DNA of 64,000 nt from Nitrospira sp. (GCA_005116955.1 SWDI01000002.1:483151-547150), one strand, 5' to 3'; counted from the first letter of the stretch, positions 41,564 through 58,918 are shown. Translations and numbers: made by a program. Notes: generated from the sequence alone by a model not told the origin.

Positions 41564-41639
41564 GCTGGCGTAGCTCAATCGGCAGAGCAGCGGTTTTGTA
41601 AACCGCAGGTTGGAGGTTCGATTCCTCTCGCCAGCTCCA
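41564..41639 (+). tRNA. tRNA-Thr (anticodon TGT)
   Basis: 76 nt including an encoded CCA. Acceptor stem GCTGGCG/CGCCAGC, anticodon stem GCGGT/ACCGC around loop TTTGTAA giving anticodon TGT, T-arm GGAGGTTCGATTCCTC. Its 3' half is also the probable left attachment site of the neighbouring integrase element and forms, in antisense, the last codons of the integrase gene. Confidence 0.95.
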
Positions 41640-42855
41640 CACCCTTCCACGATATATCAGGTAGTTGCAGAAGTGGTCCGGTTTGGGGATTCTGTGCATA
41701 AGCCCCGTCTGCTACCACTTTGCTACCACGTGCTACCGCCCGCTCTGATTGAGACGGTATTGCGTCGAGACGATCCAATGCACCAGGGGCTTTCTTCTTC
41801 AGCCATCGACCATAGGTGGAGACAGTCAATTCAATCGTGGCGTGGCCAAGTTGTTCCTGTACATAGACAGGGCTGACGCTATCAGCCAGGAGAATGGAGG
41901 CGTACGTATGGCGCAAACAATGAGGGGTGAAATGTGTCGGCAACTTCGCTGCCTTCAACGCATGGGTCATGCCCTTCCGCACATTCGCCGCATCGAGTGG
42001 GGTACCCACCTTGCTCACGAATAGCCACGAAGGACGATCAGTCCATCCATATTTGAGCGTGTCGTGCTTGCGTGCCCGGATATGAGATCCCAGCATCTCA
42101 GTGAGAGAGTGCGAGATATCTACCGAGCGTCCATGGCCAGACTTGGGCGTATCAAGCGCTCCATCTTCTGAAAAAGCACGGGCAATGCGGATCGTCTTGG
42201 CCTGAAGATTCACATCCTCGACTTGCAGCGCTAAGGCTTCCCCTAATCTCATACCTGTACCGGCCAGGACAAAGAACAGCGGATAGTAGCGGGGCGTGTC
42301 CTTCAAGGCCGTGGACAGGAACACGTGCCGCTGCTCCTTGGTGAAGGCTTTGATTTCTTCCTGCCTCGTCGCCTTGGATGTGGTTAACTTGAGCGTTCGG
42401 CCTAATTTTGCCGCTGGATTGGAGATGAGAAGACCATCGTCAATCGCAGCATTCAGCATGGCTCTCAACACAGCATGGATATTGCGAACGGTACGCTTCT
42501 GAAATCCCTCGTTGAGCTTGTCAGTGAGTAAGAGCTTAATAGGTCCTCGCTCCAGCTTTTGAACTGCGACCTTCTCAAAGCGCGGGAGGATATGTTGCAT
42601 GAGGATTTCACTGTATCGCGCCATGGTCCGCGACTTCAGACTATGGCCGATCAATTGTTTCCAGTGCTCCGCATAGTCCTTCAACGTGATGCTGGCGGGA
42701 ACCGTCGATGTCAAACGTTGCCGGGCTTCCGGTCCGACCTTATCACGGTGCGCATCCGCATCGGTCTTCTTGTCGAAGGTCTTCCAACGGCGCACTCCCG
42801 CTCCATCGCGCCAGTCCACCACATATTTGCCGCGCCGTTTTCGCACACACGCCAT
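41575..42855 (-). CDS. tyrosine site-specific integrase
   Basis: Phage/island-type integrase, 426 residues: N-terminal Arm-type DNA-binding region, SAM-like core-binding domain (TLKDYAEHWKQLIGHSL), catalytic domain with Arg in GTGMRLGEAL, HCLRHTYAS, LGHATIE and Tyr in STYGRW. The last codons (GIEPPTCGLQNRCSAD) are read from the antisense strand of tRNA-Thr, a pattern typical of integrases whose att site is the 3' end of the tRNA. Oriented towards the tRNA with an excisionase-like gene upstream. Confidence 0.93.
   Translation of the reverse strand: MACVRKRRGKYVVDWRDGAGVRRWKTFDKKTDADAHRDKVGPEARQRLTSTVPASITLKDYAEHWKQLIGHSLKSRTMARYSEILMQHILPRFEKVAVQKLERGPIKLLLTDKLNEGFQKRTVRNIHAVLRAMLNAAIDDGLLISNPAAKLGRTLKLTTSKATRQEEIKAFTKEQRHVFLSTALKDTPRYYPLFFVLAGTGMRLGEALALQVEDVNLQAKTIRIARAFSEDGALDTPKSGHGRSVDISHSLTEMLGSHIRARKHDTLKYGWTDRPSWLFVSKVGTPLDAANVRKGMTHALKAAKLPTHFTPHCLRHTYASILLADSVSPVYVQEQLGHATIELTVSTYGRWLKKKAPGALDRLDAIPSQSERAVARGSKVVADGAYAQNPQTGPLLQLPDISWKGVELARGIEPPTCGLQNRCSAD
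41600..41639 (+). other. probable left attachment site (attL) in tRNA-Thr
   Basis: The integrase gene abuts and overlaps this tRNA 3' end, and everything to the left is a conserved flagellar locus while everything to the right is accessory. The exact crossover is not visible. I looked for a second copy of the 3' end (GGTTCGATTCCTCTCGCCAG) to the right and found none before 64000, so attR is outside the window or lost. Confidence 0.5.
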
Positions 42856-42977: not shown

Positions 42978-43298
42978 TCAACCGCCATGTTGCGCCATAT
43001 ACGCGTGCAAATCGGACGGTTTCACCCTCACCGATTTTCCCAATCGAATGGCCTTCAGCTCTCCGTGACGGCACAACTCATAGGCGCGATATTGACTGAG
43101 CTTCAGTCTCGCTGCAACTTGCCCGATTGTGAGCAGATCCTCGTCGCCCGCGCTGTCTGCTGAGCCCATGAGGGCCCGCTGAACCAGCAAGGGCTGAAGC
43201 GACGCGAGTCCGATCAACAGTGCCTGCGCAATCTCCGGTGATAGGATAGCCGCCTTGGCGGGGTCTTGGATCAGTTGATCAAGGCTCGGTGGTGTCAT
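42978..43298 (-). CDS. excisionase-like helix-turn-helix protein
   Basis: 106 residues. The C-terminal half is a MerR/excisionase-type winged helix (LLTIGQVAARLKLSQYRAYEL, then HGELKAIRLGKSVRVKPSDL). The N-terminal half is helical and unassigned. Such proteins encoded just upstream of an integrase commonly act as recombination directionality factors; that role is inferred. ATG 43298 has AGGGGAAG upstream. The stop is 122 bp before the integrase start. Confidence 0.8.
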   Translation of the reverse strand: MTPPSLDQLIQDPAKAAILSPEIAQALLIGLASLQPLLVQRALMGSADSAGDEDLLTIGQVAARLKLSQYRAYELCRHGELKAIRLGKSVRVKPSDLHAYMAQHGG

Positions 43299-43399: not shown

Positions 43400-43468
43400 C
43401 TAACGGTCGAACTCTTCTCGCTTCACCAGGATCTTCCCTTCGATCCGGTAGTGTGGCACGGTGGAACT
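43400..43468 (-). pseudogene. remnant of a second HTH_17/excisionase-like gene
   Basis: A short frame reading TVPHYRIEGKILVKREEFDR then TAG matches the C-terminal wing of MerR/excisionase-type DNA-binding domains (pattern IPHYRIGGKILF). No N-terminal helix-turn-helix is present upstream, so it is a fragment. The rest of 43299-43520 holds no gene that I can support. Confidence 0.45.
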
Positions 43469-43520
43469 TATGAGAGGGTTCAGAATTTTTGACCATACCG
43501 AAAAGGTAGGGGGAAGACAG

Positions 43521-43549
43521 TTGACAGTTCTCCATAAGACATGTAACAT
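43521..43549 (+). promoter_or_regulatory. promoter of the repressor-imuB-dnaE2 operon
   Basis: TTGACA (43521-43526), exactly 17 bases, TAACAT (43544-43549). The -10 box lies inside the operator palindrome. Predicted start at about 43556-43558, coinciding with the start codon of the repressor. Confidence 0.78.
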
Positions 43550-43560
43550 TTTGTTACATG
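43540..43560. promoter_or_regulatory. palindromic operator over -10 box and start codon
   Basis: CATGTAAC (43540-43547) and GTTACATG (43553-43560) are perfect inverted repeats with ATTTT between them. The right arm ends with the repressor ATG. Size and position fit a dimeric HTH repressor acting on its own promoter. No other full copy was noticed in the window. Confidence 0.75.
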
Positions 43561-44100
43561 CAGCCTCATGAACTCAAGCAGATGCGAACCTCCCTCGGGT
43601 TGACCCAAGACACCCTTGCACAGACCCTCAATGTGACGCGGCAGACTATTAATCGGTACGAGCAGAAGATCATGCCGATCCCCACCACCGTTGAACTGGC
43701 CCTGATGCAACTCAGCTCCTCGCAGATTCAGCTGGCTGGGGTTGTCGCGGCAGGGGCGCCGATTGAACCGATTCCTCAGATGGAACGCGTCGAGGTGCCG
43801 AAGAGCATGGTCGGTCGTGGAGAGACCTTCGCCCTTCGGGTGAAGGGCATGTCCATGCAGGACGAAGGAATCTTCTCCGGCGATGTGGTCGTGGTTCAGA
43901 AACAAGCCACCGTCCGCAATGGTCAAACGGTCATCGCCTTGGTGAATGGCGAGGCCACAATCAAGACGTATTACCGCAAGGCCGGCACGGTGGAACTCCA
44001 TCCCGCCAATGACGCCATGCAGCCCATCATTATCAAGCCGTCGGACAGCTTCCAGATCGAAGGCATTGTCGTCGGCGTCATCCGTCATCTCCGAAAGTGA
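43558..44100 (+). CDS. LexA/CI-like self-cleaving repressor
   Basis: 180 residues: XRE-type HTH (about 4-45, LTQDTLAQTLNVTRQTINRY) and an S24 peptidase domain. Expected autocleavage at A65-G66 in VVAAGAP, nucleophile S99 in VKGMSMQDEGI and general base K136 in GEATIKTYY, all matching LexA/UmuD/CI. It should cleave itself on RecA activation and release the downstream mutagenesis genes. The ATG has no Shine-Dalgarno and coincides with the predicted transcription start, so translation is probably leaderless; the next ATG (43582) would truncate the first helix. Followed after 19 bp by the imuB-like gene. Confidence 0.92.
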   Translation: MQPHELKQMRTSLGLTQDTLAQTLNVTRQTINRYEQKIMPIPTTVELALMQLSSSQIQLAGVVAAGAPIEPIPQMERVEVPKSMVGRGETFALRVKGMSMQDEGIFSGDVVVVQKQATVRNGQTVIALVNGEATIKTYYRKAGTVELHPANDAMQPIIIKPSDSFQIEGIVVGVIRHLRK

Positions 44101-44119
44101 GGCCTCGGCTGTTGGCACC

Positions 44120-45304
44120 ATGGACCGCCAAATTGTCTGCTTTGGTATTCCTGCTTTTGAAGTCGCCGTCGCGCGGCTGCATGATCCCAGTCTCTCGACG
44201 CGACCTGTCGCGATCGCTGCATTAAACACCTCCCGCGCGTGCCTGCGTGAAGTCTCAGCCGAATCCGAACAAGCAGGTCTAGCGGTGGGCATGTCCGTTG
44301 AACGAGCGCGACGGGTCTGTCCGTCTTTGCACGTCTCGCCCCCGAATCGCTCCCGCGTCCGCAACGCGGAGGAGTCGTTGCTTCACATCGTGAGACGCTA
44401 TGCTCCGGTCTGGGAACCGGTTCAGGCTGGCTCCTTCGTGATGGATCTGACCGGGACCGGACGGCTCTTTGGGCCTGCTTATGATGTCGCGGCGAAGGTC
44501 CAGCATGAGGTCCTCGCTCAGTATCGGCTAGACGGGGTCGCCGGTGTGGGGAGCAACAAGCTGGTGGCTCAGACTGCGGCGACGTTGATTCAACCCTCTG
44601 AACTCTACGATGTCCGGCCGGGGTCGGAGCCGATGTTCATGGCTCCACTGTCGGTACGAAGCCTGCCAGGCTTACAGCGCCCCTGCATGCGGCAGGTCCT
44701 GACCAGGCTCGATGATTTGAATCTCGACACACTCGGTGACGTGGCGGAGAGTCCCATTGATGCATTAGAAGTGGCGCTCGGGGATTATGCCGGGCAACTC
44801 TCCCGCTGGGCCCAGGGAATTGATTCATTGCCGGTGTTGCCGCCGGCGATTCAGCCCAGTCTTGAAGAGACGGTCCTCCTCGATCCAGATGCAATCGATG
44901 ATCCGGTGCTGACCGGCCAATTACTCGACGCACTGCAACGGCTCTGCCGGACGCTCCGGAGTCAGCGTCGCGTCTGTGGCCGTCTCACCCTGACGATCCG
45001 GTACAGCGATTACCTTGAAGTAACCAAACACGAGCGCGTTGCTCCCGAAACCTGCTGGGAATGTGACTTGTCTTCCGTGGTGCTGTCACTCTTTCAGAAG
45101 TCCATGCGTCGGCGGATTCGCCTGCGCGCCATGACCCTAAGCATGAGTGGCCTGACCGGCTACGCCGAGCAAGGGGTGTTGTTCGATGCTCGGCCCGTCG
45201 ATGAGCAGCGACGGCAGGACCGAGCTAAGAAGTTGGCGGTCGCCCTCGATACGCTCCATGCCCGGTTTGGTGAGCGGGTCATTCGGTATGGGAGGAGTAG
45301 TTGA
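44120..45304 (+). CDS. imuB: ImuB-like Y-family polymerase homologue, catalytically degenerate
   Basis: 394 residues with the Y-family fold (palm, fingers, little finger). The catalytic motifs are lost: where active enzymes have HxDxDAFF this protein has CFGIPAF, and where they have SIDEAFLD it has QAGSFVMD. That is the hallmark of ImuB, which serves as a scaffold between the sliding clamp and DnaE2. A clamp-binding-type motif QGVLF lies near the C-terminus. The open frame extends upstream through the repressor gene, but ATG 44120 begins the homology. Its stop is directly followed by the dnaE2 GTG. Confidence 0.87.
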   Translation: MDRQIVCFGIPAFEVAVARLHDPSLSTRPVAIAALNTSRACLREVSAESEQAGLAVGMSVERARRVCPSLHVSPPNRSRVRNAEESLLHIVRRYAPVWEPVQAGSFVMDLTGTGRLFGPAYDVAAKVQHEVLAQYRLDGVAGVGSNKLVAQTAATLIQPSELYDVRPGSEPMFMAPLSVRSLPGLQRPCMRQVLTRLDDLNLDTLGDVAESPIDALEVALGDYAGQLSRWAQGIDSLPVLPPAIQPSLEETVLLDPDAIDDPVLTGQLLDALQRLCRTLRSQRRVCGRLTLTIRYSDYLEVTKHERVAPETCWECDLSSVVLSLFQKSMRRRIRLRAMTLSMSGLTGYAEQGVLFDARPVDEQRRQDRAKKLAVALDTLHARFGERVIRYGRSS

Positions 45305-48300
45305 GTGGCCTTCGTCCACCTGCATACCCATTCATCCTCTTCGCCGATGTGGGGTGTCCCGACGATAGAGGCCCTCTGCCAGGCCGCTCAATCACAAGGA
45401 CAGGACTATCTCGCGCTCACCGACACCAATGGACTCTATGGCGCAATCCGCTTTCTGAATGTCGCGCGCGAACATGGACTCAAGCCGATCATCGGTGCAG
45501 AACTCGTCTCCGGCCTGCGCCAGGCCGTGCTGCTCGCGAAGAACTCCACGGGGTACGCCAATCTCTGCCGGATCCTGTCTGCTCGTCATTGTGATGTGTC
45601 CTTTGACTTCATCGAGATGGTCGCCCAACACCGAACAGGGTTGGTGATCCTGTCAGATGATCCTATTGCCGTGCCCGCTTGGCAGGCGGATTCGGGAGAG
45701 AATCTCTATATTGAGCTCACGCCGGGACCGGCGCTCCAAGACGCGGTCGCGTTGAGCCGCCAACTCAGGCTGCCGCCGGTGGCCACCACCCGCGCCGCGT
45801 TCCTTCGCCCAGCCGACTATCAGGCCCATCGACTGCTCCGCGCGATCGCGGAGAACACGACGCTCTCACGACTCAAGCCCGACCGCTGCGCTCTTCCCTC
45901 TCAGTGGCTCATGCCGGAACCAATGCTCACGCGACATCTGCCGCACGTTCCGGAAGCCATCGCCAACACGCGGCAGATTGCCAAACAGTGCCACACCGAT
46001 TGGGACTTTAAACAGACCATCTTTCCATCCTTCCGTCAGCTCTCCTCAGACGACGCCTTCGAGACGTTGCAGCGCAAGACCTACGACGGCGCCATCTGGC
46101 GCTATGGGTCTTTGTCGGTCCTAGTCCGAGAACGGATTGAGAAGGAACTGGTGGTGATCCGTGACAAAGGCTATGCGGATTATTTCCTGGCGGTGGATGA
46201 AATCGTCCGCCAAGCGCCACATACTTGTGGCCGTGGTTCTGCCGCCGCCTCGATTGTGTCCTACTGTCTCGGCATCACACATGTGGATCCGATCAGGCAC
46301 AACTTGCTGTTTGAACGGTTTCTGAATCCCGGCCGTCATGATCCACCCGACATCGACGTGGACTTTCCCTGGGACGAACGTCCAGCCATCCTCGACTGGG
46401 TCTTTAAACAGTACGGGCATCAGCACGCGGCGATGGTCGCCAATCAGAACACCCTCGCTACACGCGCGGCTTTGCGCGAGATTGCGAAGGTCTATGGCCT
46501 TCCCGCCGCTGAGATTGGCAAGGCGCTGAACTTTTTGCAGCGACGAGCCGACTTCGTTGACGTGCAACCCGGCATGATGGTGCAAGACTGGGCGCGAGAC
46601 GTCTGCAAGGCGTTGAACCTGAGAAACCCTTGGCCAGAGATCCTCTACTGGTCGACGCAATTGGATGGCCACTTCAGGAATTTGAGCCTCCATCCCGGCG
46701 GTGTCGTGTTAGTTCCGGATGAGATCCGACGGTATGTGCCGGTTGAAATCTCGGCTTCCGGCTTACCGGTGATTCAATGGGAGAAGGACCAGACGGAAGA
46801 GGCTGGGGTCGTGAAGATCGACCTCTTGGGCAATCGCTCACTCGCCGTCATTCGTGATGCCATCGCCGCCGTCGCCTGTAACACAGGCAGGGTCATCGAC
46901 TATGCGACGTGGGATCCGCTCACTGATCCGACCACCAACGACTTGATTCGGCGCGGCGAGACGATGGGTTGCTTCTATGTGGAATCGCCTGCGACGAGAC
47001 TGTTACTGAAGAAGCTCTGGGCCGGGATGCCGCCGACCAGAAAAGCGGCCGCCGATGTCTTCGAATATCTCGTCGTGGTGTCGTCGATCATCCGCCCTGC
47101 CGCGAACGTGTTCGCAGATGAGTTTGTGCGTCGCGCCCATGGACAACGTTATCGTTCACTGCATCCGCTCCTGGATGAGGTCCTCGCGGAGACGCACGGC
47201 ATCATGGTGTACCAAGAAGACGTGATGAAGGTCGCCGTGGCCCTTGGCGGCTTCTCCGTCAAAGATGGCGATCAGCTCAGAAAGGTCCTGAGTAAGAAGC
47301 ACAAGGCCCGGCGGCTTCGGGACTATCAGCTGCAGTTTTACAAGGGTGCCATGAGCCGTAGCGTGGAACGGTCGGTCACCGATGCCATCTGGGCCATGAT
47401 CACGAGCTTCGCGGGGTATAGCTTCTGTAAACCGCATAGTGCCAGCTATGCCCAGGTGAGTTTCAAATCGGCTTACCTCAGAGCCCACTATCCCGCCGAG
47501 TTCATCGCCGCGGTTGTGAGTAATCAAGGCGGCTACTACTCAGCCTTTGCCTATCTATCGGAGGGACGACGGATGGGCCTCACCATCCTGCCCCCGGACA
47601 TCAATGCGAGTGTTTGGGCTTATACCGGATCAGGAACCACCGTTCGAGTCGGTCTCATGCAGATCAAAGGCCTGCAAGAAGACCTGGCCAAGCTGATCAT
47701 CGCAGAGAGAAAAACGCATGGCCCGTACCGATCGCCGTCCGATTTCCTGAGTCGCGTAAAGCTGGACTACAGCCAAGCCAAATTGTTGATCAAACCTGGA
47801 TGCTTGGATTCGATTGCCGGTGAACTCACCAGACCGGCCCTGCTGTGGCGCGTCTTCGCATCGCAAGCGACGAAGCCGCCGAGCTACATCCCCATCCCCA
47901 CAGAGTATTCAGTCCAGAAGAAACTTCACCACGAGCTGGCTCTCTTCGGCTTTCCCTTACGCTGCCATCCGCTCGATCTGTTCAAGGAGGCGCTGGCTGA
48001 TACCTCGCACATTCTTGCAAAGGATTTGAATCAGTATATGGGGAAAGAAGTCACTCTTATCGGGTGGCTTCTGACAGAGAAGATTGTCTCTACCAAGAAA
48101 GGCGAACCGATGGAGTTTATGACTCTGGAGGATCAGACCGGGATGTATGACGCCACCGTGTTTCCCAATATGTACCGGGAATACTGCCATCTCCTGGCCA
48201 CGAACCAAGCCTATATCGTGACAGGCTTGGTCGAGGAGCATTTCTCCACAGTCACCGTCTCTGTCCATACTCTTAGACTGCTGACCAGCCATGCCCGCGA

Positions 48301-48349
48301 GACACCTGCCGAATTTCTAGAAGAAGTCCGCACGGAAGAGTACACCTAG
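45305..48349 (+). CDS. dnaE2: DnaE2, error-prone DNA polymerase III alpha-type
   Basis: 1014 residues: PHP domain at the N-terminus (HLHTHSSS, residues 5-12), C-family polymerase core with catalytic aspartates in PDIDVDF (about 348-354), HhH region and a C-terminal OB fold (EVTLIGWLLTEKIVSTKKGEPMEF region). Performs translesion synthesis with ImuB. Slightly shorter than typical DnaE2 (1030-1100). GTG start immediately after the imuB stop, with GGAGGAG seven bases upstream. No imuA gene is present between repressor and imuB. Confidence 0.93.
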   Translation: MAFVHLHTHSSSSPMWGVPTIEALCQAAQSQGQDYLALTDTNGLYGAIRFLNVAREHGLKPIIGAELVSGLRQAVLLAKNSTGYANLCRILSARHCDVSFDFIEMVAQHRTGLVILSDDPIAVPAWQADSGENLYIELTPGPALQDAVALSRQLRLPPVATTRAAFLRPADYQAHRLLRAIAENTTLSRLKPDRCALPSQWLMPEPMLTRHLPHVPEAIANTRQIAKQCHTDWDFKQTIFPSFRQLSSDDAFETLQRKTYDGAIWRYGSLSVLVRERIEKELVVIRDKGYADYFLAVDEIVRQAPHTCGRGSAAASIVSYCLGITHVDPIRHNLLFERFLNPGRHDPPDIDVDFPWDERPAILDWVFKQYGHQHAAMVANQNTLATRAALREIAKVYGLPAAEIGKALNFLQRRADFVDVQPGMMVQDWARDVCKALNLRNPWPEILYWSTQLDGHFRNLSLHPGGVVLVPDEIRRYVPVEISASGLPVIQWEKDQTEEAGVVKIDLLGNRSLAVIRDAIAAVACNTGRVIDYATWDPLTDPTTNDLIRRGETMGCFYVESPATRLLLKKLWAGMPPTRKAAADVFEYLVVVSSIIRPAANVFADEFVRRAHGQRYRSLHPLLDEVLAETHGIMVYQEDVMKVAVALGGFSVKDGDQLRKVLSKKHKARRLRDYQLQFYKGAMSRSVERSVTDAIWAMITSFAGYSFCKPHSASYAQVSFKSAYLRAHYPAEFIAAVVSNQGGYYSAFAYLSEGRRMGLTILPPDINASVWAYTGSGTTVRVGLMQIKGLQEDLAKLIIAERKTHGPYRSPSDFLSRVKLDYSQAKLLIKPGCLDSIAGELTRPALLWRVFASQATKPPSYIPIPTEYSVQKKLHHELALFGFPLRCHPLDLFKEALADTSHILAKDLNQYMGKEVTLIGWLLTEKIVSTKKGEPMEFMTLEDQTGMYDATVFPNMYREYCHLLATNQAYIVTGLVEEHFSTVTVSVHTLRLLTSHARETPAEFLEEVRTEEYT

Positions 48350-48426
48350 ATGACTAGCACGTCATGCAAGGTGGCCATTTGCCAGCAGGGAGACCCCTGA
48401 GAACTCAAGACGTACGGGGGGACGAG

Positions 48427-48837
48427 GTGCAGATAGAGTATGCCGAAGAGTGGTTCGGATGGGCGCAACGGTTTTACGACTTAGCCGTCGAGGATGAAAA
48501 ACAGCGATGGATGTATAGCGCCCTCTGTCAATTTTGCTGGGAGATCGCCGGCACCCCCTATGCCGAGGAGTTTCAACCCAGAGAACATCGTGTTGCGAAG
48601 TACTTAAGACCTCACTGGTGTGTACTCCTGTCAAAACGCGATGGGAGTGCTCCGAAGAAATGGGTGCAGGTATCCACGGGGGATAATGGTGACCGTCCGT
48701 GGCTCGCTTATTCCGAGTTCCATCCGGAGCATCTGTGCGCATGCGAGTTCATGCTTGTTGATCCCGCCAATATGGTGCCACGATTCACAAAATTTCTGTC
48801 GCTGGTAGACTGGTCGGGCTTCGCCTGGGAGAAATGA
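48427..48837 (+). CDS. hypothetical protein downstream of dnaE2
   Basis: 136 residues, not recognised; rich in Trp and aromatic residues (EYAEEWFGWAQRFYDLAVED, WCVLLSKRDG, CEFMLVDPANMVPRF), no signal peptide or membrane segment, apparently a compact cytosolic protein. GTG 48427 is preceded by GGGGGG five bases upstream; ATG 48364 would add 21 residues. Same direction as dnaE2 and about 80 bp behind it, so it may be part of the SOS operon. Confidence 0.6.
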   Translation: MQIEYAEEWFGWAQRFYDLAVEDEKQRWMYSALCQFCWEIAGTPYAEEFQPREHRVAKYLRPHWCVLLSKRDGSAPKKWVQVSTGDNGDRPWLAYSEFHPEHLCACEFMLVDPANMVPRFTKFLSLVDWSGFAWEK

Positions 48838-48895: not shown

Positions 48896-49741
48896 CTACC
48901 ACGCATCGTACCGTACCCATTCGAAGAATCGCCTCACCTTGATTGGCAGATTCGATCCTAGGGATTGATCGTCAAGCATGTTGGGCTGACCGTTTAGTGA
49001 AAGGGACAGTTCGGCGCGGTATAGATCTGCTTTGTATTGAATAATCGCCTCTCCGATCCAGTCGTGCTCCTTCTTCGTCATGGTCACAGGACGAATCGCC
49101 TGTTCCAGGTGGGCATGGGCGGCACGATCTTCGTCCGTTTTCCAGTCGAGACTCTGAGCCTCTTCGAGCACACGGAAGTTGCCGTCGCCTGGATCCATCG
49201 TCCCGATCACGAACTTCAGATAGGTCACCGCTTGCTCTGGTGTGGTCAGCTGAGGACGATTCCACTTATTGAGCTGACGAATCTGCTCTACCCCTCGCTG
49301 ACCGTTCAGGAGCGTAATGCCGCGATCATGAGAGAGGAAGGTCAGGACTCCCGATTGTACCCCGGGTATCTCCAATTCCCCTTCGATCAAAGCTACATTG
49401 TCGTAACAAGCAAGGGGCAGCCTCCGCAGCCGCGAGGGCTCAACCGGTACCGACCACTCGTTCCTTCTGATCAGATACCGACTGGGCGCAGCCCGATGAT
49501 GCCGAATTTTCTGCATGACCTCAGCAAATTCTTCCGGCGGAAGATCTTGCCAATTCCCCTCCATCAGGGGCCTGGCCGGCCATGGCGGAGTCGTCTCAGG
49601 TGTTGAGGCGAATACCTCTGAAGCCTCGCTACCCGCTCTCTCTTCTGCGATTGACGGCAAGAGCTCGCCGGCCATTGCCGCCTGCAGACAAAGCAGACTC
49701 AGCACGCTAGCTAAGACAATCGGCATCTTGTGATGATTCAT
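48896..49741 (-). CDS. exported protein of unknown function
   Basis: 281 residues with a Sec signal peptide (MPIVLASVLSLLCLQAAMA) and a periplasmic domain without recognised motif (VALIEGELEIPGVQSGVLTF, EWVRYDAW end). GGAGG lies ten bases before ATG 49741. Convergent with the dnaE2 operon; it follows the large Ig-like lipoprotein gene after 168 bp. Confidence 0.75.
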   Translation of the reverse strand: MNHHKMPIVLASVLSLLCLQAAMAGELLPSIAEERAGSEASEVFASTPETTPPWPARPLMEGNWQDLPPEEFAEVMQKIRHHRAAPSRYLIRRNEWSVPVEPSRLRRLPLACYDNVALIEGELEIPGVQSGVLTFLSHDRGITLLNGQRGVEQIRQLNKWNRPQLTTPEQAVTYLKFVIGTMDPGDGNFRVLEEAQSLDWKTDEDRAAHAHLEQAIRPVTMTKKEHDWIGEAIIQYKADLYRAELSLSLNGQPNMLDDQSLGSNLPIKVRRFFEWVRYDAW

Positions 49742-49909
49742 GTGTGAATGTCCTCCGCATTGCCTCACGTAGGAGTCAGGCGATGTTGTTCTCCTGGGAC
49801 CCCTCGTGATTCAGCAAAACCAAATCAGCTACCCTTGCCCGTTTCATACTCGCCGGGTGAGACGACGGAATTACCGCCGCCTCACCCAGAGAACTCACCT
49901 CACTGCACG

Positions 49910-52021
49910 TTAGAACGGCGAGAAGGTCACCGTGCCGTTCAAGGTAATCGACGGGATATTCCCAAATGGGGTTGTTAAAACCGTATTCAAGAACGTCACC
50001 GTCCCCGCCGATCGATTCACCGTCACACCACTGCAGGCTGTTCCTGGAATAAGAGGAGCTTGAGAAAAACAGGTCCAAAGACCCTCATCTCCAGTCACAT
50101 CATCATCCAAACCAAAACCAACGAAGGATACCTGACCAGTGGACGCCTCTACAGACACGTTCAGAGGTTCTCCATGCCGAGGGAAATCAACTTCCAATGC
50201 GTAGAGCAAGATGGAATTCCCCCTGACCCGGATGTCGTTAAATGTCGGATCTGGCACGAACGTCCCTCCCACGCTGGCTGGCGCGTTCGACACCGTCAGC
50301 TGACCTCCGCCGGTTCCGCCTCCCCCGCCTCCACTTGGGAGAATGACGATGGTAAACTGCCGTTCAGCTGATTGTTGAGGCGTCCCACTATCCTGTACCC
50401 GTAGAGTGAATGGGAACGTCCCAGCCGTTGTCGGCGCACCGGTGATGGTCCCAGTGGCAGTATCCAACGACAAGCCTACCGGTAAGGTCCCAGCACTGAT
50501 ACTCCAAGTCTTGTCGCCGGTTCCCCCTGTCGCCCCCAATATGTCATTGTAGGCCGTACCGACCATACCGCTCGACAGTGTGTTGGTTATAATCAAGAGG
50601 GGTTGCACGTTCGGCGCAGTAATCGCGACCGTAAATTCCTTCCTCGTCGTCCCCCCCGCTGAATCAGTCACCTTCACGGTGATTGTCGTCGTGGCAGCCG
50701 CAGTCGGTGTCCCTGAGATCACACCAGCGGGATTCAGGGATACGCCATCCGGTAAGGAATTCGACCCGGTAGTGAGGCTCCAGACATAGCCAGGCACTCC
50801 ACCGGCAGCGACCAAGGTCTGGTTGTAGGCCACCCCAATGGTCCCGTTCGGAAGTGCCGTCGTCGTGATCGCCAGCTGACCCGGCTGCTTCACCAGGCAG
50901 TTGGGGAGTGTGATATCCGTCGCCGAGGGCCCGACGTTCACCGTATTCGAGACCGGGACCAGATTGAAGGTCTGTGCATCGAATTCAAAGAGCCCGAGTT
51001 TCGCCCGACTGCTCTTGCGCATGGCCACCGAGAAGGTCCCATCCGCTGCCGTCGCATCCATAGCCATCCCGGTGTAACCAATGCCCTCTGTCTGCACGAG
51101 AGCATTGGCCACTGGTTGCCCATTCGCGTCCTTGACGCACCCGTTCACCACGATGCTGTCGAGCACCAGATCGGCATTCCAATAGGTGACACGGGTCACA
51201 GGTCCTTCATAGTATCGATTTGCGCCAGTCCCTTGCAGTGTGGCCGTACCGTCCTCACGCCAGACCCCGGCGGTGTCGTCAAAGAACCACAAGGGCATCG
51301 TGGCCGGTGGATTGGCAGACTGGGTCCTGAGCGGAATACGAATGGTCGCCGTGGTGCCTGGCGCCAGTGTGTAGCGAGCGCCGGCACTGTCGCGAACATC
51401 GATCTGCATGGCGCCGCCACTTTCCAGCGGTTGCACCGAGCCGCCGCCGGCCGCAATGCCATTGAATCCTCCCGGCATCACCCGGGGCTCCTCAGCCGGG
51501 TTGATTGGCGTCAAGGATACATTCACCGACCCAGCCGGCGTGCCTCCAGCGACCGGCACCAAGCCATTGGCCGGAATCGTCACACGAGCCGGTGAATTCG
51601 GCACGGACACCGTCCCACCTGATGTCACGGAGACCGTCTCGGTGACTCCAATCGGCACAAGCTTGACCCCGAGGTTGGTGGTTTGCCCAGCTGTGACGCG
51701 AGCAATTGGAAAGGCCTCGGCAAATCCGCTGGCTTCCACACGCACAACGGTACGATCTCCGACAGGAGCCGAGATGGTAAACTTCCCGTCCGCCGCCGTC
51801 GTCGTGGTCCCCGTCTCCGTCTTCACGGCAGCCCCGCTCACCGGCGCATCGTTGGCCAATGAGACGACTTGCCCAGTCACCGTACCCACCGATTGTACTA
51901 TCGGTGCACTCCCATTCTCAGTGCCGCCACAAGCGGCCAGCTGCAGACAGAGAAGCCCCGCTAGAGCGACGCGTCCCCATCGTGATCGATGCTTCCATAC
52001 CCTCTCACTGCACACGTTCAT
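49910..52021 (-). CDS. large lipoprotein with carboxypeptidase-regulatory and Ig-like repeats
   Basis: 703 residues. Lipoprotein signal ending LAAC, then a CarboxypepD-regulatory-like beta domain (VSGAAVKTETGTTTTAADGKF), a central region with a second such domain (VNGCVKDANGQPVANALVQT), and two putative Ig modules of the He_PIG type (GVISGTPTAAATTTITVKVTD and GTITGAPTTAGTFPFTLRVQD). Cell-surface adhesion or scaffold role is likely from architecture only. AGGAGG five bases before ATG 52021. Confidence 0.82.
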   Translation of the reverse strand: MNVCSERVWKHRSRWGRVALAGLLCLQLAACGGTENGSAPIVQSVGTVTGQVVSLANDAPVSGAAVKTETGTTTTAADGKFTISAPVGDRTVVRVEASGFAEAFPIARVTAGQTTNLGVKLVPIGVTETVSVTSGGTVSVPNSPARVTIPANGLVPVAGGTPAGSVNVSLTPINPAEEPRVMPGGFNGIAAGGGSVQPLESGGAMQIDVRDSAGARYTLAPGTTATIRIPLRTQSANPPATMPLWFFDDTAGVWREDGTATLQGTGANRYYEGPVTRVTYWNADLVLDSIVVNGCVKDANGQPVANALVQTEGIGYTGMAMDATAADGTFSVAMRKSSRAKLGLFEFDAQTFNLVPVSNTVNVGPSATDITLPNCLVKQPGQLAITTTALPNGTIGVAYNQTLVAAGGVPGYVWSLTTGSNSLPDGVSLNPAGVISGTPTAAATTTITVKVTDSAGGTTRKEFTVAITAPNVQPLLIITNTLSSGMVGTAYNDILGATGGTGDKTWSISAGTLPVGLSLDTATGTITGAPTTAGTFPFTLRVQDSGTPQQSAERQFTIVILPSGGGGGGTGGGQLTVSNAPASVGGTFVPDPTFNDIRVRGNSILLYALEVDFPRHGEPLNVSVEASTGQVSFVGFGLDDDVTGDEGLWTCFSQAPLIPGTACSGVTVNRSAGTVTFLNTVLTTPFGNIPSITLNGTVTFSPF

Positions 52022-52171
52022 GTCATCCTCCTGGTTAAGACTCACACACCTTGCTTCGACTCACCGTCACCATCCCGCCTCTTCATCCACATCCACGCCG
52101 GCTCACCCAGACAGGACACGGCTCCGCCCGCTGGTGTGGTGAGCCGTCCCTGTCTGAGTACCTGTTTAGGC

Positions 52172-52522
52172 CTACGGGGATGCAGAGACCCTTGACTGCA
52201 CATTCGACACGTTGACCGTCGGTTCATGAAAGAACCACCGCAACTCCTTGCGTTCCCCGGCACGAAACACCACGTTCTGCTCGCGGTCCCATTCGCCCTC
52301 CGAGGTGGAGAGATGCACCTTCACGCGAATCGTCCCCTGTTGGCCGACATTGGTAATCGTCCCTTTCACCACCACCCCAGCATCCGGCTCACCATTGACC
52401 ACGCCGAAATCGTAGTCGGAGTGGACCTGATCGACGCGTGCGCTCGCGTCGGATTGGTCATGACTTCCCACATACGCCAGCACGCCGAACGTCAGAATGA
52501 TTCCCCAAATAAAGTTCCCCAT
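52172..52522 (-). CDS. small membrane-anchored beta-domain protein
   Basis: 116 residues: N-terminal membrane segment (FIWGIILTFGVLAYVG) followed by a beta-sandwich-like domain (DAGVVVKGTITNVGQQGTIRVKV) resembling FxLYD-type exported domains. GGGAGG seven bases before ATG 52522. It lies 150 bp upstream of the Ig-like lipoprotein on the same strand. Confidence 0.72.
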   Translation of the reverse strand: MGNFIWGIILTFGVLAYVGSHDQSDASARVDQVHSDYDFGVVNGEPDAGVVVKGTITNVGQQGTIRVKVHLSTSEGEWDREQNVVFRAGERKELRWFFHEPTVNVSNVQSRVSASP

Positions 52523-52549
52523 CACCGCACCTCCCTTTCGATTGCTCAT

Positions 52550-53320
52550 TCAACGAGATTGGTGAGACTCAGCAGCCCACGAAATCTCTTGTTCATGACT
52601 CTCAGTCGTGGCATGGCCCTCGGAGTTAAGCTCGCTAAAGCAAAAAACTCCCTGAACAATGACAATCGCGGGTAAAGAGCGTCAGGATGGCGACTTTAAG
52701 AGCCTTTGGAGAAGGGAGCAGATTGATGCAGCGATCAAGGTTTGCTGAAGGCGAGATGGTCTATGACTTCCGGCAGCAGTGGCGAGAGCCCCGATAGGTG
52801 ATCTCTGGTGGCAATACAGCAACGCTGAACAAACGTTCTATGTATCGCGAAAGAAGGCGGTCTATCTGGGAATCATCAAACTGAGCCGGTTGCGGACAGA
52901 GGAAGAGGGAAATGGGTGGTTAAAGCGGGTAATCATTGTTTCAATCACGGGCGATTTAAGATGGGTCTTATCCGCTGAATGTTCATCCCGACTGTCTTCA
53001 GCCAGGAAACCTGTGAAGGCTACGTTCATTGAACTGGGAGGGATGTGAGCGATTGGTGGATCGTGCCTCAGTTCGCACCAATGTCTGAGATGGGTAGACC
53101 ACAATATCCGTCGTCCCTACGGCTCGCTCGGCCACCTGATTCAGCGTGAGTTCATCGGATAACCACTGAGAAAATCGATCGTCGAGTGAACCACCTGGAA
53201 TAAGCTTGAGCCGTCTCGTTATGGGGCCGAATCATGCGAATCATGAGACGGCACTGCGATTACAAGGTCAGGCCTGCCCGTCCCATACGTCCTCGCGGCG
53301 ATCGCGAAAGCAAGAAGTTC
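52550..53320. other. gene-poor stretch with decayed coding sequence
   Basis: Contains one doubtful plus-strand frame (52779-53048, listed separately) and, on the minus strand, a start-less frame (52998-53236) reading protein-like sequence (RLKLIPGGSLDDRFSQWL, then LNQVAERAVGTTDIVVYP). The two overlap near 53000. An inverted repeat GCCGTCTC/GAGACGGC (53210-53217, 53245-53252) encloses a tandem CGAATCATG duplication. The impression is of an eroded insertion site. Confidence 0.45.
52779..53048 (+). CDS. doubtful hypothetical protein
   Basis: 89 residues from a GTG without a ribosome site; reads WWQYSNAEQTFYVSRKKAVY and later VIIVSITGDLRWVLSAECSS. Unrecognised. Possibly the remnant of a larger frame. 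Confidence 0.3.
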   Translation: MARAPIGDLWWQYSNAEQTFYVSRKKAVYLGIIKLSRLRTEEEGNGWLKRVIIVSITGDLRWVLSAECSSRLSSARKPVKATFIELGGM

Positions 53321-54208
53321 CTACTCAGTTACCACGGATAGCGCCCGCAGTGTCTGTGGAGACATTTTGTCAACCGTGTTAATTGTTGGCTCAAACATGT
53401 GATCTAGAAAGTCAAGAGAAACTCCCTGCTTAAGCAAAAATTTGACGTAGTCCACGACTATCTTAGCCCCACTTCTCTCTATCTCAGTGCTCTCCTCACT
53501 TCGCATCTCAGCCAGTGTCATAACAAGATCGGACATCTCCGGAGTATTCATAGCGTCGACATACCGGTTAATTGACTCAACCTGCACTGACCTCGGCCAT
53601 CCCCGGGAAATTGTATCTCCTTTAATTTCGAATTGAAACGGCACAAGGCTGGCCTTCATAACATTGAGAACAACAGAGTTCTGCATCGCGCCCATCATCG
53701 CATGAATAGTTTTAAGAGATAACAACAGACTCATGTTAAATGGGGTGAAACCATTTCGTGCATTGGCGGAATAGGTAGAGTCTTCACCAGCCCTATTATA
53801 TTGATGAGAAGAAAACCCATGCACTTCGTAGCTTCCGTTTGGATCAATTGTTCTTCTGATTCCACCCAAAAAAGCCAATGTGCAGGCACTAATACAGTAA
53901 CTTCCAGCGGATACGTGTGTCCGGAAACCGTGCTTAGCAATTTCTTCTGCAATGCCGAAGGCTGCCTTGACGTTTCCACCACCCGACTTGAATTCAATTC
54001 TGTCGATGGCTTTATATCTTTCTCGACAGGACCGTAGCGCCTGTTTAAACAGCCCATCATCGCCGAATTTGAACTCTCCCGTAACAGCAAGAATAGCTCC
54101 TACAGTTTCCGAAGGATTGCACGGAAAGGTAAGTCCGTGTGCATCAGTGATTGACAAATGAAAATTAATCGTAAATAGGCAAAGTAAAAACGTTACGACA
54201 CGGCTCAT
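53321..54208 (-). CDS. periplasmic ClpP/crotonase-fold protein
   Basis: 295 residues with a signal peptide (VVTFLLCLFTINFHLSITDA) and a ClpP-like core: GGGNVKAAFGIAEEIAKHG strand-helix, the SYCISACTLAFLGG nucleophile-elbow region with Ser and Cys, and GSYEVHGFS. This matches the predicted periplasmic proteins of the COG3904 type, whose function is unknown; whether it is an active serine protease cannot be told. Last of a four-gene unit of exported proteins. AAGGA seven bases before the ATG. Confidence 0.75.
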   Translation of the reverse strand: MSRVVTFLLCLFTINFHLSITDAHGLTFPCNPSETVGAILAVTGEFKFGDDGLFKQALRSCRERYKAIDRIEFKSGGGNVKAAFGIAEEIAKHGFRTHVSAGSYCISACTLAFLGGIRRTIDPNGSYEVHGFSSHQYNRAGEDSTYSANARNGFTPFNMSLLLSLKTIHAMMGAMQNSVVLNVMKASLVPFQFEIKGDTISRGWPRSVQVESINRYVDAMNTPEMSDLVMTLAEMRSEESTEIERSGAKIVVDYVKFLLKQGVSLDFLDHMFEPTINTVDKMSPQTLRALSVVTE

Positions 54209-54235
54209 GGTGGGTTCCTTACAAAGCTGCGGTTC

Positions 54236-54964
54236 TTATGTGCGCGAGAGTTCCATTCTTGTATAGTGGCCATCGGCGCTACGGCAGGCGTCAGACTCTT
54301 GCTGTCTCTGTTCGCCATTCTTCCAAACCATCTCTCTGATCTTGACACAATCTTTTCCGTCCTTTGTCCTCACAATTTCCCCCGTCTTGGGAGAGGTCGA
54401 TGTCCCAATGTAGGTGGCTTCACCTCTTGTACCGTCTTCCGTATAAGTCTGGGGGCTGCCTTGCTTCGCTTGTGCGGTCTGAATCTCACGTTGTTTCGCT
54501 TGCTCACGTGCCACTCTATCTGAGTCTGTCGCAGGGGGTGGCATGGTTCGATAGCGTTCTTCGATTTGGAGACGGTCTCGTTCAGCTTGCTCAGCGCCAG
54601 CTTGAGCAGCCTTTTGAAATACCTCATCCTGCCGTTGTTGTTCTCGGTCAGTCAGGATTTGACCAATAGCCGTATAAGCCAGTCCAACAGCACACCCGGC
54701 GCCTGCCCCAATCGCAACGCTCGGTATCGCGGACTTATAGTCAATTTTCCCTTGCTTAAGATTACTTGCTTGCTTGATAGCCTCAAACCCTATAGCTCCT
54801 ATTACACCGATGCCGACACCTTTGGCGCAATTACTAGCGTAGTCACCAGCGGTCGTTTGTCCCTGCATGCCTTGACAGCTGACCAGTAATAACGAAAGAG
54901 AAACAGTTAATGCCATGATACGTCGGCTTGGATTGCTAAACTTAGAATGAAAGTCGGCAGACAT
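54236..54964 (-). CDS. lipoprotein with glycine-rich membrane-like region
   Basis: 242 residues. Lipobox LVSC after a hydrophobic signal, a glycine-zipper-like stretch (GVGIGVIGAIGFEAI and SVAIGAGAGCAVGLAYTAIG), a coiled coil (about 110-170) and a C-terminal beta part with DGKDCVKIREMVWKNGEQRQ, resembling surface-antigen/17-kDa-type lipoproteins. AAGGAGG precedes the ATG. Third gene of the exported-protein unit; 25 bp downstream of its neighbour. Confidence 0.75.
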   Translation of the reverse strand: MSADFHSKFSNPSRRIMALTVSLSLLLVSCQGMQGQTTAGDYASNCAKGVGIGVIGAIGFEAIKQASNLKQGKIDYKSAIPSVAIGAGAGCAVGLAYTAIGQILTDREQQRQDEVFQKAAQAGAEQAERDRLQIEERYRTMPPPATDSDRVAREQAKQREIQTAQAKQGSPQTYTEDGTRGEATYIGTSTSPKTGEIVRTKDGKDCVKIREMVWKNGEQRQQESDACRSADGHYTRMELSRT

Positions 54965-54989
54965 AGAACCTCCTTAAGTACTAAAACAA

Positions 54990-56093
54990 TTACCGATCGG
55001 TGCAAGTAAAAGAGAGCAATGATCTTGCCGTTCCACTACTCAAAGGTGGTTCACGAAGACGAGCCAGCTCCTGCTCAGCCTGAGTAAGCTTGGATTCCAC
55101 GTTCGAGAGGTCAAGACTTAGCTGTTGATGGGTTTGTGCAGTTTGTTGGCATTGCTGTAGTAGCCGCTGTGGAGTCGCCGCCACGTATGCTACACGGTCT
55201 TCCCACTGCCTCGCGCCCTCATGAAGCAGCTCTACGGCCTTTTGCTCACATTCTGATGTGAGGGATTTAAAGAACGCAAGAGCTTCCTGGTACTGCGTAA
55301 ATCGTTCTCCCTGAGCTGCGGCAAGCTCCAACCCCTGAATTTTGTCCTCGTCTGGCGTCGTCATGAAAACCTTCAGTTTACGTTGTATCTCTACTCCTTG
55401 TGCCCGACGATCCCATATGGCTTGCCTCTTCGCCATCACATATAACTTACCCGCCATCTCTTGTAGAGTGTCCTCCCATGCAACCGCACATACTTGCGAT
55501 GCCGTTGCAGGACGATCCTCTGATGGAACTACGGTGACGGGTTTCTGAGGAGACGGAGGCGGTGCCCCCTCCCTACAGTCAGCCCATGAATGAGCTCCAT
55601 ATCCTTCAAGCTCTCGAAACACCACATTGACACGGGTCTTGATCGACTCAGCTTCGACATGGAGAGCAGCCACCGATTGCCCGGCCTGCTTGCGGGCATT
55701 GATCCTGGAAAACTCTTCCTCCCAGAATGGATTTCTGAATGTGTATTTCTCAGAATGATTGTGACGAACGGAAACCTGTCCACCTGATCCAACTATCATA
55801 AGGCACAATGGTGAACTTAATTGAGCGGTCTCTGCAGACAATGTGAAACGGAGGGTCCCATTTTTAGGGTCAGCAGTGGCCTGGCTTAACGCTCTACTTC
55901 GCGATGCGTAACCATTCCAATCACTTGCCCTAATCAGCGAGTAGGTTCCCTGAAGACGAGAATGAGGAGTCGATTCAGGCCGATAGACAATCGTATGCCT
56001 TGTTCCGGAGAGCTCGGAAGAAGCACAGCCTGTTCCTGAGAGAAATAGCAGGATCAAAATGAACATATATCGAGGTAACATGACAGCCCTCAT
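54990..56093 (-). CDS. lipoprotein with C-terminal coiled coil, unknown function
   Basis: 367 residues: lipobox GTGC after MFILILLFLS, a beta-rich N-terminal half, and a long helical C-terminal half (about 200-350). ATG 56093 overlaps the upstream gene stop (ATGA), showing translational coupling. No family recognised. Confidence 0.72.
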   Translation of the reverse strand: MRAVMLPRYMFILILLFLSGTGCASSELSGTRHTIVYRPESTPHSRLQGTYSLIRASDWNGYASRSRALSQATADPKNGTLRFTLSAETAQLSSPLCLMIVGSGGQVSVRHNHSEKYTFRNPFWEEEFSRINARKQAGQSVAALHVEAESIKTRVNVVFRELEGYGAHSWADCREGAPPPSPQKPVTVVPSEDRPATASQVCAVAWEDTLQEMAGKLYVMAKRQAIWDRRAQGVEIQRKLKVFMTTPDEDKIQGLELAAAQGERFTQYQEALAFFKSLTSECEQKAVELLHEGARQWEDRVAYVAATPQRLLQQCQQTAQTHQQLSLDLSNVESKLTQAEQELARLREPPLSSGTARSLLSFTCTDR

Positions 56094-57583
56094 TGTCGAG
56101 TGAGCGTCTCCAATATTGGCATAAGATGGTTGCAGGCTTTCCACCCTGGATCTAGCACGCTGGATACGGCAGGCGCAGAAAGATTTTCATTGGCAGTTGA
56201 GGCTTTCGGCCGATCCTGAAATTGTTTTGCACAAGCTGCTGCCCAGAATCTGATCTGGACATCTTCTAGAAAGACACCTCGCTCGGACGTTCGCGCTGAT
56301 GACAAGTTCGTTCTTTCGAACTCTATGACGGAGGATGCACGTGTGAAGAGTTCCATTGAAGCCCGATCATAGTACGACTTGCTCATAAGCTTTTGAGACA
56401 GAAATGAACCAAATAAGTAAAATAAGTAATGTGGAGACGTAGCGGAAAACTCTCGGGCTTTGGCCTTTCCACTCTGACTCGTTTCACCACCATCAATTAC
56501 AGTAACTACCCTTGAAGGGATATCCTGCTGCAGGGCGAGTGCTTGCCCCACCGCCCCTACAAGAGTAAATAGAATCGCATCCTGCTTGGATTCTGGCGTA
56601 AACGGCTTCAATGCGTCTAATCCAAAAGGCGCTAAATACTTCCCCCTGAAATGCGCAAGGCTCGTCGTGCTTTTTCTTTCATTTTCCGGAATCAATTTCT
56701 GAATAAAATTGGCCTCCAATTCCTCTTGAAATTGATCATGGATCAAGCTAAGGAAATCTTCACACACAACTACGAGCCTGGAGGAAGGTGCACCCTGGTT
56801 CTTTAGTGGGACGCGGGTTACCCAATTAATACATGTGATGAAGTCCACCGTTATAGAATGAGAAAGCAGGTATTCTGACGCCAAATCATTCAAGAAACTA
56901 CGCATGGTAGGCTCTGCAGCCTTAGTTGTTACATACCCAAGATGCATGAGGTAGGCCCGGTCCTGTCCTTTCAGTGCCGCAGGTGGCTGCTCTATGCGTA
57001 GTTCGAATGGAGCCCCGCGCGGCGTTCTATCGGAGTTTCTTACTTGATCGATTTGGATATTCAAATCATCAAATTGTTCTTCAGTAATACTCCAGGGTGC
57101 GTGCGCTTGGAGGCCTCCTCTAGAAAACCCACGACGCGTCACTTGATACCTGTCACCAAGAAAACTAATTTCATCGTAGTCGCCATTCTTGGCCATCAAA
57201 TATAGCGACCGTAAGCCTTCCTTGTTCGGTACAGGGCCAAGATAGATGGGATGACCGTCAGGCATAAAAACAGAGACTGCCTGAAAGCCTTTCTGGTTTG
57301 CGCGCATAACGAGACCCATACACCTCTTAATCACCGCACACGAACTTGCATTGGGTTTTACGATGACAAGGGCATCAACCATATTGCCTGGATCTAGATT
57401 CAGCCAATGCACGTATACTTGATGAGCAGTACGATCTGGCGTATTTATCTTTAATTCCTCAGCAATGGCCGTAGCCAGTTGCTCATGTCTGGCAGCCGGA
57501 TTAACCTTATCCTTACCCCATGCGGATTGGGTAGAATCCAGAAGCAACACCAGCAATAGAAGTACTGCCACATCGAGTCGCAT
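56090..57583 (-). CDS. exported protein of unknown function
   Basis: 497 residues with a signal peptide (VAVLLLLVLLLDSTQSAWG). Contains four to six cysteines in the mature part and no enzyme motif that I can identify. First gene of the unit 57583-53321 (four exported proteins with gaps of -4, 25 and 27 bp), so the products probably act together in the envelope. Confidence 0.7.
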   Translation of the reverse strand: MRLDVAVLLLLVLLLDSTQSAWGKDKVNPAARHEQLATAIAEELKINTPDRTAHQVYVHWLNLDPGNMVDALVIVKPNASSCAVIKRCMGLVMRANQKGFQAVSVFMPDGHPIYLGPVPNKEGLRSLYLMAKNGDYDEISFLGDRYQVTRRGFSRGGLQAHAPWSITEEQFDDLNIQIDQVRNSDRTPRGAPFELRIEQPPAALKGQDRAYLMHLGYVTTKAAEPTMRSFLNDLASEYLLSHSITVDFITCINWVTRVPLKNQGAPSSRLVVVCEDFLSLIHDQFQEELEANFIQKLIPENERKSTTSLAHFRGKYLAPFGLDALKPFTPESKQDAILFTLVGAVGQALALQQDIPSRVVTVIDGGETSQSGKAKAREFSATSPHYLFYLFGSFLSQKLMSKSYYDRASMELFTRASSVIEFERTNLSSARTSERGVFLEDVQIRFWAAACAKQFQDRPKASTANENLSAPAVSSVLDPGWKACNHLMPILETLTRQ

Positions 57584-57916
57584 TACTCAGAGATCCGATC
57601 AACTACCAGTAATCATTCAGCATTGCTGGCGAAGAAACCTGGAAAATGGAGGTGAATTATACTCCAGCTCGACAGAGATCGTAAAGATTGAAGCACTGCC
57701 GTTATCGAGTCTCAGGCCGGCACCATCTATCTCGGTGATCCAGGGGATCTACCGGCTTCTTCGACTCAGCATTCGCGACAGCCGTAAACTAGCCTGTTTC
57801 TCGGTCTTTCAGACTGCCTAAGCACGAAGTGGAGTTCATCGAGAACGTGCCATCGCAGCTCCACAATAGAGAACCCGCCTATAGGGGCAGGGGCCTTCAT
57901 TTTAGACCTCGGTCTC
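57584..57916. other. intergenic region, no gene seen
   Basis: 333 bp separating two minus-strand exported-protein genes; must hold the promoter of the four-gene unit. GTGGAG/CTCCAC inverted repeat near 57830-57864. Short frames here lack support. Confidence 0.45.
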
Positions 57917-58891
57917 TTAATAACAGTGGTAGGGCTTAACAACTTCAGCACAGGGGTTACCTGTGGCGTTTAGAAGAAGCAGGATACCAAATATAGCGCC
58001 GCCAAACTCCGCCTGCCGTAACCGTTCGCTCGCTGCTTTCTTCGCAGCCAGGATCTCCGCTTCTATACCTTTTTGCCGAGCTGTGGCCAGCGCAAGGAGG
58101 GATCTGGCCCTTTCGGAATCATTATGAACAATTTTGATCGGAGTCGTGTGTGGATAGTACGTGCCTCTGTAAATCTCCTGTGACGTATAGGTGTTGAGCA
58201 GGTCAGCCCCCCTCCGTCCAACCTTCCATCGAGGCATTTCTGTAAATCGACCGGAGATTCCGATTTCGTGTGGGACTGCCCCACATTGCTTCGCAATGAC
58301 TTCCTTCAGCAGAAGCAGGTTCTTCTCAATTGCGTTCGGAGTCGTGATCCATGAGGCATTGTGGGACCCGATGTAAAACGAGAAAGTCGGGTCAGTATGC
58401 TCTTCGTGGATTTGGGTGGAAGTTGGCTTGAAGTTACCCTCGGGCAAGAGCCAATCACCTCTATACCGGTGGATATTGATCGTCGGACGTGCGCTACACA
58501 CATTGTCTGAAGTGGTCATAAACGCCGCATTACCAGTCGTGGTCAGGGCATACTCCCCTGTTATCACGTTATGCCACAGCTTATTTATATATTCGCATGT
58601 TGAGTAGGCCGGTGAGTCGCTGCTTGGGAATATTCCATTTAAACTCTGCAAATTACTTCTGGGCTCACTTTTTATTAAGAATTCATTGGCTCGAAAGGTC
58701 CAGCCATTTGCGCCTGGCAACATTTCAGAACACATACCGGTTGATTTACCAGATAAACTCTCAACTCCATCATTTAAGGACCTGATGGACGTGCATGATG
58801 CGGACATGGTGATCACCAAAAGACATAACCCTGCCCTCAGAAGATTGCCGTTCCATGAGACACGATGCCAATGAACATGACTTCCTGCCAT
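57917..58891 (-). CDS. lipoprotein of unknown function
   Basis: 324 residues from ATG 58891 (GGGGG eight bases upstream). Signal with lipobox SASC (LLRAGLCLLVITMSASC), extracytoplasmic domain with several Cys, a helical segment, and a C-terminal hydrophobic patch (GGAIFGILLLLNATG). No family recognised. Confidence 0.7.
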   Translation of the reverse strand: MAGSHVHWHRVSWNGNLLRAGLCLLVITMSASCTSIRSLNDGVESLSGKSTGMCSEMLPGANGWTFRANEFLIKSEPRSNLQSLNGIFPSSDSPAYSTCEYINKLWHNVITGEYALTTTGNAAFMTTSDNVCSARPTINIHRYRGDWLLPEGNFKPTSTQIHEEHTDPTFSFYIGSHNASWITTPNAIEKNLLLLKEVIAKQCGAVPHEIGISGRFTEMPRWKVGRRGADLLNTYTSQEIYRGTYYPHTTPIKIVHNDSERARSLLALATARQKGIEAEILAAKKAASERLRQAEFGGAIFGILLLLNATGNPCAEVVKPYHCY

Positions 58892-58918
58892 ATCAAACGC
58901 CCCCTTATATAGGACTCG

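Follow-up and report, generated by a model that had tools for sequence, protein, structure and literature searches.

Chromosomal mutagenesis cassettes usually take the form lexA2-imuA-imuB-dnaE2 or imuA-imuB-dnaE2; Caulobacter has imuA, and the ImuB-C domain is thought to bind DnaE2. Cassettes that lack imuA are already known, from Deinococcus and Kyrpidia, as is the carriage of imuABC on mobile elements. In Deinococcus, a LexA-family gene shares an operon with an inactive Y-family protein and DnaE2, a standalone ImuB-C is present, and some species have two cassettes; SOS-induced mutagenesis has been demonstrated there, and Deinococcus deserti deprived of ImuY or DnaE2 no longer showed UV mutagenesis, its radiation resistance being unchanged under the tested conditions (PMC8072749). 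The available portion of the article by Timinskas and Venclovas (PMC6511836) describes variants in Kyrpidia and S. coelicolor (DinB2-like) that have an inactive, RecA-NT-tailed Y-family protein and DnaE2 but no imuA, in operons that often include lexA; that portion does not mention Nitrospira and describes neither mobility nor swappable operator specificity. Plasmid pRalta, whose imuABC sped adaptation after transfer (PMC4151985), and ICEPni2 (PMC7466150) are transferable elements with mutasome genes as cargo, and both carry imuA. The mobilizable plasmid Do28_1 of Desulfosarcina ovata bears the genes lexA - DUF72 - PolY-like - dnaE.

The locus described here lies in Nitrospira sp., within a 64-kb stretch of DNA, the whole of which we call the window. 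Our reading, to which we give a probability of roughly 80%, is that a tRNA-integrating element carries, as its first cargo, a DnaE2 mutasome operon that lacks imuA and has a LexA-like switch of its own. Three adjoining plus-strand genes fill positions 43558-48349 and encode a repressor, a Y-family protein, and DnaE2, with 19 bp between the first two genes and 0 bp between the second and third. Gene calls and domains confirm the original prediction that a repressor, imuB, and dnaE2 form one operon beside integrase and excisionase genes at a tRNA. The 180-aa repressor (43558..44100, + strand) has an N-terminal HTH_3 domain and a C-terminal Peptidase_S24 domain, and the domain search found no LexA wing-helix DNA-binding domain in it; its score exceeds the NCBIfam LexA cut-off, though its DNA-binding domain is not of the LexA type. 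The AAG, GMSM, and ATIK motifs of solved LexA all align; by this alignment, cleavage maps to GVVAAGAP (A65-G66), the serine to S99 in GMSM, and the lysine to K136 in ATIK, so that both the Ala-Gly site and the Ser-Lys dyad of an S24 autoprotease are present.

The second gene (44120..45304, + strand) encodes a 394-aa ImuB-like protein that is predicted to be catalytically dead as a polymerase: all Y-family catalytic carboxylates are lost, with D9, D105, and E106 of solved Pol IV aligning to G9, G104, and S105. Its QxxLF clamp motif (here QGVLF) is invariant, and its C-terminus, RAKKLAVALDTLHARFGERVIRYG, is similar to the start of the host RecA, KKRALDLALSQIEKQYGKGAIMKLG, with 12 of 5000 shuffles reaching an equal score. 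The chain stops at this RecA-NT-like motif with no ImuB-C domain fused to it, and no standalone ImuB-C lies between imuB and dnaE2. The third gene (45305..48349, + strand), assigned by domain and family scores and by alignment, encodes a 1014-aa DnaE2-type DNA polymerase III alpha subunit, which is linked to the Y-family protein and is the genome's second DnaE. Its catalytic aspartates are intact, PDIDVDF and VKIDLLG aligning to solved alpha subunits, and it is predicted to perform error-prone, damage-induced synthesis.

Like the Deinococcus cassette, this operon includes a LexA-family gene, an inactive Y-family protein, and DnaE2, and has no imuA; unlike it, the operon lacks the standalone ImuB-C between imuB and dnaE2, has an HTH_3 rather than a LexA wing-helix repressor, and resides on integrative elements. 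It shares with the imuA-containing chromosomal cassettes, both with and without lexA2, an inactive ImuB and DnaE2 under a LexA-like repressor, but has neither imuA nor the ImuB-C extension and has a putative private operator. A RecA-NT-like Y-family protein, a dnaE2 operon, and no imuA as judged by an insensitive model place it close to the Timinskas and Venclovas variants, as far as the available portion of their article characterizes these. Where pRalta and ICEPni2 carry imuA, the Nitrospira cassette instead carries a repressor with a matched candidate operator, and unlike them it recurs across several tRNA islands. Do28_1 brings the same four gene kinds together on a mobile replicon, but there DUF72 is upstream, the PolY is 29% identical, and the repressor is annotated as LexA. 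The novelty lies in combining the absence of imuA and ImuB-C with a seemingly private operator that can be swapped and with repeated occurrence on tRNA islands.

The proposal that the repressor might replace both ImuA and chromosomal LexA control found no support. An imuA gene is absent from the operon itself by gene calls, and neither this genome nor any of 117 Nitrospirales genomes gave a match to the ImuA model that passed its cut-off, the weak matches in the latter being RecA or RadA; however, the Caulobacter control likewise scored below the cut-off, which makes the test insensitive. The repressor as an ImuA substitute is unsupported and was rejected in favour of RecA, which appears likelier to fill this role because ImuB ends in a stretch similar to the RecA N-terminus and because imuA-less cassettes are known. 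As for LexA, the genome contains no canonical LexA to replace. It encodes three S24 proteins: the cassette repressor, a UmuD-type protein in an SRAP-UmuD-UmuC cluster (L034:757-3153; G000:C1 near 371,000, G000 being the source genome), and a resident HTH_3-S24 paralogue (L036:1324-1869; G000:C2 near 342,500), which is probably the host SOS repressor in place of LexA. A box common to host and cassette was considered and rejected, since that of the resident paralogue, TGTTACCAATGGCTACA, differs; searching the genome with it returned its own site, one weak site, and no other.

A sigma-70-like promoter (TTGACA-17-TAACAT; 43521..43549, + strand) is recognizable from sequence ahead of the repressor gene, and position 43521, given in the original prediction as the start of the cassette, is the first base of its TTGACA -35 box. 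The putative operator is a 17-bp palindrome, TGTAACATTTTGTTACA (43542..43558), that overlaps the -10 box and the start codon; as it covers the -10 box and ends at the A of the repressor ATG, it suggests a leaderless transcript. This is the sole such site genome-wide at two or fewer mismatches. The distance to TTGACA is nearly constant in 30 of 31 cassettes, and a palindrome occupies the operator position in 29 of 31, with the -35 box 14–16 bp upstream. The idea of a self-regulated module thereby gains a private, genome-unique candidate operator: the cassette is probably controlled by its own repressor, and the uniqueness of the site makes regulation apart from the host likely.

Based on established LexA and mutasome biology and on the motifs above, the likely working of the cassette would be as follows. 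Bound at the palindrome, which overlies its own and possibly leaderless promoter, the repressor would keep the operon silent until DNA damage leads to RecA filaments, upon which it would cleave itself at A65-G66 and allow ImuB and DnaE2 to be produced. ImuB would dock on the clamp via QxxLF and on RecA via its C-terminal RecA-like motif, which would do the job of ImuA, and would recruit DnaE2 for lesion bypass with errors. The operon would need only RecA, the clamp, and RNA polymerase from its host, and could therefore work wherever the island lands. We infer SOS induction and mutagenesis by the cassette from its sequence, and a raised mutation rate upon damage is plausible. A possible but rather doubtful alternative is that the cassette is kept for host survival of damage through lesion tolerance, mutagenesis being a by-product and not the purpose of an adaptive mutator module. 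DnaE2 systems do act in translesion synthesis, and resident copies have been retained at stable positions in the chromosome. However, the unchanged radiation resistance of D. deserti strains that had lost UV mutagenesis along with ImuY or DnaE2 (PMC8072749) and the faster adaptation after transfer of plasmid imuABC (PMC4151985), neither of them observed in Nitrospira, argue for mutagenesis as more than a by-product.

The operon resides on a genuine integrative element, as had been proposed. ARAGORN places a tRNA-Thr(TGT) gene, the attachment gene, at 41564..41639 (+ strand), and its 3' part forms attL (41595..41639), which is repeated perfectly over 45 bp in direct orientation at attR (window coordinates 90855-90899; G000:C2:574005-574049). 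The latter is not inside the 64-kb window, lying 26.9 kb past its end, and the att-bounded element measures 49.3 kb. A 426-aa tyrosine integrase (41575..42855, - strand; Pfam Phage_integrase 1.8e-25, PHROG integrase), whose gene overlaps the tRNA-Thr at its 3' end, is accompanied by an excisionase-family HTH_17 protein identified by domain searches (42978..43298, - strand). In one relative (G063), 96% identical at the locus, the tRNA runs directly into sequence found here beyond 90,930, and this empty site completes the features of a tRNA-integrating island, which are all present: integrase, tRNA site, and att direct repeats are the others. Another relative (G019) shares the integrase and excisionase (97% and 95% identical DNA) and continues with other DNA instead of the cassette, and an att repeat belonging to its element lies at about 7.9 kb. 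Comparison of the tRNA-Thr locus among relatives, as originally suggested, found that presence of the cassette varies: the six genomes closest at this locus comprise five without the cassette and G007. The far att site was located for the window element and the smaller G019 element only, the sequence examined for the G018, G006, G012, G024, and G007 elements ending before it.

Further cargo extends from 48896 to 64000 and on to 90899 and consists mostly of predicted exported proteins and lipoproteins, along with HD, MORN, TPR-CHAT, and trypsin-like proteins. Many of the exported or lipoprotein-like proteins have no known family and several are mutually similar; sigma-70 region 4 proteins are also encoded, and beyond the window the element carries a 1251-aa TPR-CHAT protein. 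Neither conjugation nor virion (phage structural) genes were found among the cargo proteins scanned, and a prophage was rejected for the lack of the latter in this set and because the ImuB-like protein has no relative in 2.9 million viral contigs.

Across the sister cassettes, the operator covaries with the repressor HTH in 29 of 31 loci. Ten distinct operators occur, with palindromy kept through paired changes; RQTINRYEQK pairs with TGTAACA, RRSIIRYEDG with TGTGAC, RL(A/T)(I/V)TRYE with TGTATC, and RMTITRYECG with TGTAACC. Residues 1-47 of type A and type B repressors are 57–64% identical, while the remainder is 92–98% identical, and the two types are interleaved on a quick tree of ImuB (seven changes, against a shuffled mean of 6.7) that includes a fully supported A+B pair. 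Taken together, the HTH-operator pairing, this pattern of divergence, and the interleaving indicate that cassettes nearly identical elsewhere have traded operator and DNA-binding domain together, as one unit. Cassettes that coexist in one genome differ in operator type in all six such genomes, a count that is not significant alone. Such swapping of the HTH specificity region, as in a phage immunity region, and the position of the repressor gene next to divergent xis-int could suggest a repressor that acts chiefly as a CI-like master switch for excision and cargo of the element, with ImuB-DnaE2 as co-regulated cargo. We consider this unlikely, because the genome has a single copy of the operator, which is not at the int/xis promoter, the repressor travels with imuB-dnaE2 at integrase-free sites, and integrase modules exist without the repressor.

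We searched the 117 Nitrospirales genomes and the genome_contigs collection, in which matches of at least 63% identity are nearly all Nitrospira contigs, and distinguish three groups of loci. Group 1 consists of repressor-imuB-dnaE2, in most cases with a DUF72 gene behind it. Group 2 comprises loci from other Nitrospirales at which imuB-dnaE2 accompanies a closer relative of the resident repressor. In group 3, of which N. moscoviensis is an example, imuB-dnaE2 forms a syntenic chromosomal pair, at about 44% identity, with no repressor beside it. In gene maps, from which integrase adjacency was judged, an integrase is present at 12 of the 23 group-1 loci whose upstream sequence extends 6 kb or more, and a clear one at none of the 10 group-2/3 loci, a contrast of small numbers in which the integrase profile was defined from group 1. 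Each of the 10 type-A cassettes has an integrase no more than 9 kb away and adjoins tRNA-Thr, tRNA-Arg(tct), or tRNA-Phe(gaa); identity between the integrases of different tRNA sites is only about 22%. Occurrence on islands at three tRNAs with different integrases indicates that the cassette is mobile across Nitrospira. Divergence is discordant between integrase, flank, and cassette genes: relative to G056, the window integrase is 95% and the flanking ntrC 79% identical, and relative to G007 these values are 97.5% and 93%, with imuB and dnaE2 at 82%. In G039, the integrase module abuts the 3' portion of a DUF72 gene, a junction that we interpret as the scar of a lost cassette. Type-B cassettes are mostly near a common chromosomal gene (c5), read from its sequence as a seryl-tRNA synthetase, and mostly lack an integrase; that the cassette is an old chromosomal trait beside an incidental integrase holds for these copies and draws on the synteny of the distant group-3 pair in several Nitrospira, but for the window copy, which the att repeats enclose and which is missing from the empty G063 site, the G019 integrase element, and five close relatives, it is refuted, and its overall probability is very low.

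A conserved 52-bp sequence (43461..43512), which we call the hinge, forms the boundary between integrase module and cargo. A search with its 36-bp core found 56 places in 26 of 115 relatives, and a reversed-pattern control found 0; 27 of 30 loci agree in the side on which the integrase lies. After a sharp right edge at GGTAGGGG the cargo varies, comprising intact cassettes, cassette remnants, or unrelated DNA. The remnants are DUF72 3' parts (L251, L258, L262, L268, and L269) and, more weakly, dnaE2 tails (L250 and L254). The hinge thus behaves like a site where integrase modules and cargo recombine. It marks this boundary in many Nitrospira islands with different integrases, and comparison with known repeats gave no match to a plasmid repeat. 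The source genome has a second hinge core (G000:C2:205884-205919), presumably of another island, and in two islands (L071:3360-8786 and L081) a 1.8-kaa TPR-rich protein with a CHAT-like start, as judged by eye, is encoded between hinge and cassette.

A DUF72 (YecE-like) gene directly follows dnaE2 at L068:13617-14516 and in 18 other cassettes, and a link between DUF72 and translesion synthesis appears to be undescribed in the literature, in which a single paper contains both terms. In its place, 15 bp past dnaE2, the window has a 157-aa ORF with no assigned family (48364..48837, + strand), and the window's element contains no DUF72 remnant. The window cassette may be impaired if the DUF72 gene matters.

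A broader and distinctly speculative reading, which we hold to be improbable, is that genus-wide islands carry mutasomes with exchangeable repressor-operator "immunity" types that coexist without cross-repression. An established cassette would be silent, and upon entry into a cell without its own repressor type it would be transiently derepressed, this zygotic induction giving a self-closing burst of mutation on arrival. On the favored reading of a mutasome operon with its own switch as island cargo, an inducible mutagenesis machine and its own damage sensor would travel together on tRNA islands of nitrite-oxidising bacteria. The sister cassettes provide a natural set of matched repressor-operator pairs, and two questions become open to test: is mutability exported by mobile elements, and do repressor specificity groups act as gates to it in the manner of phage immunity?
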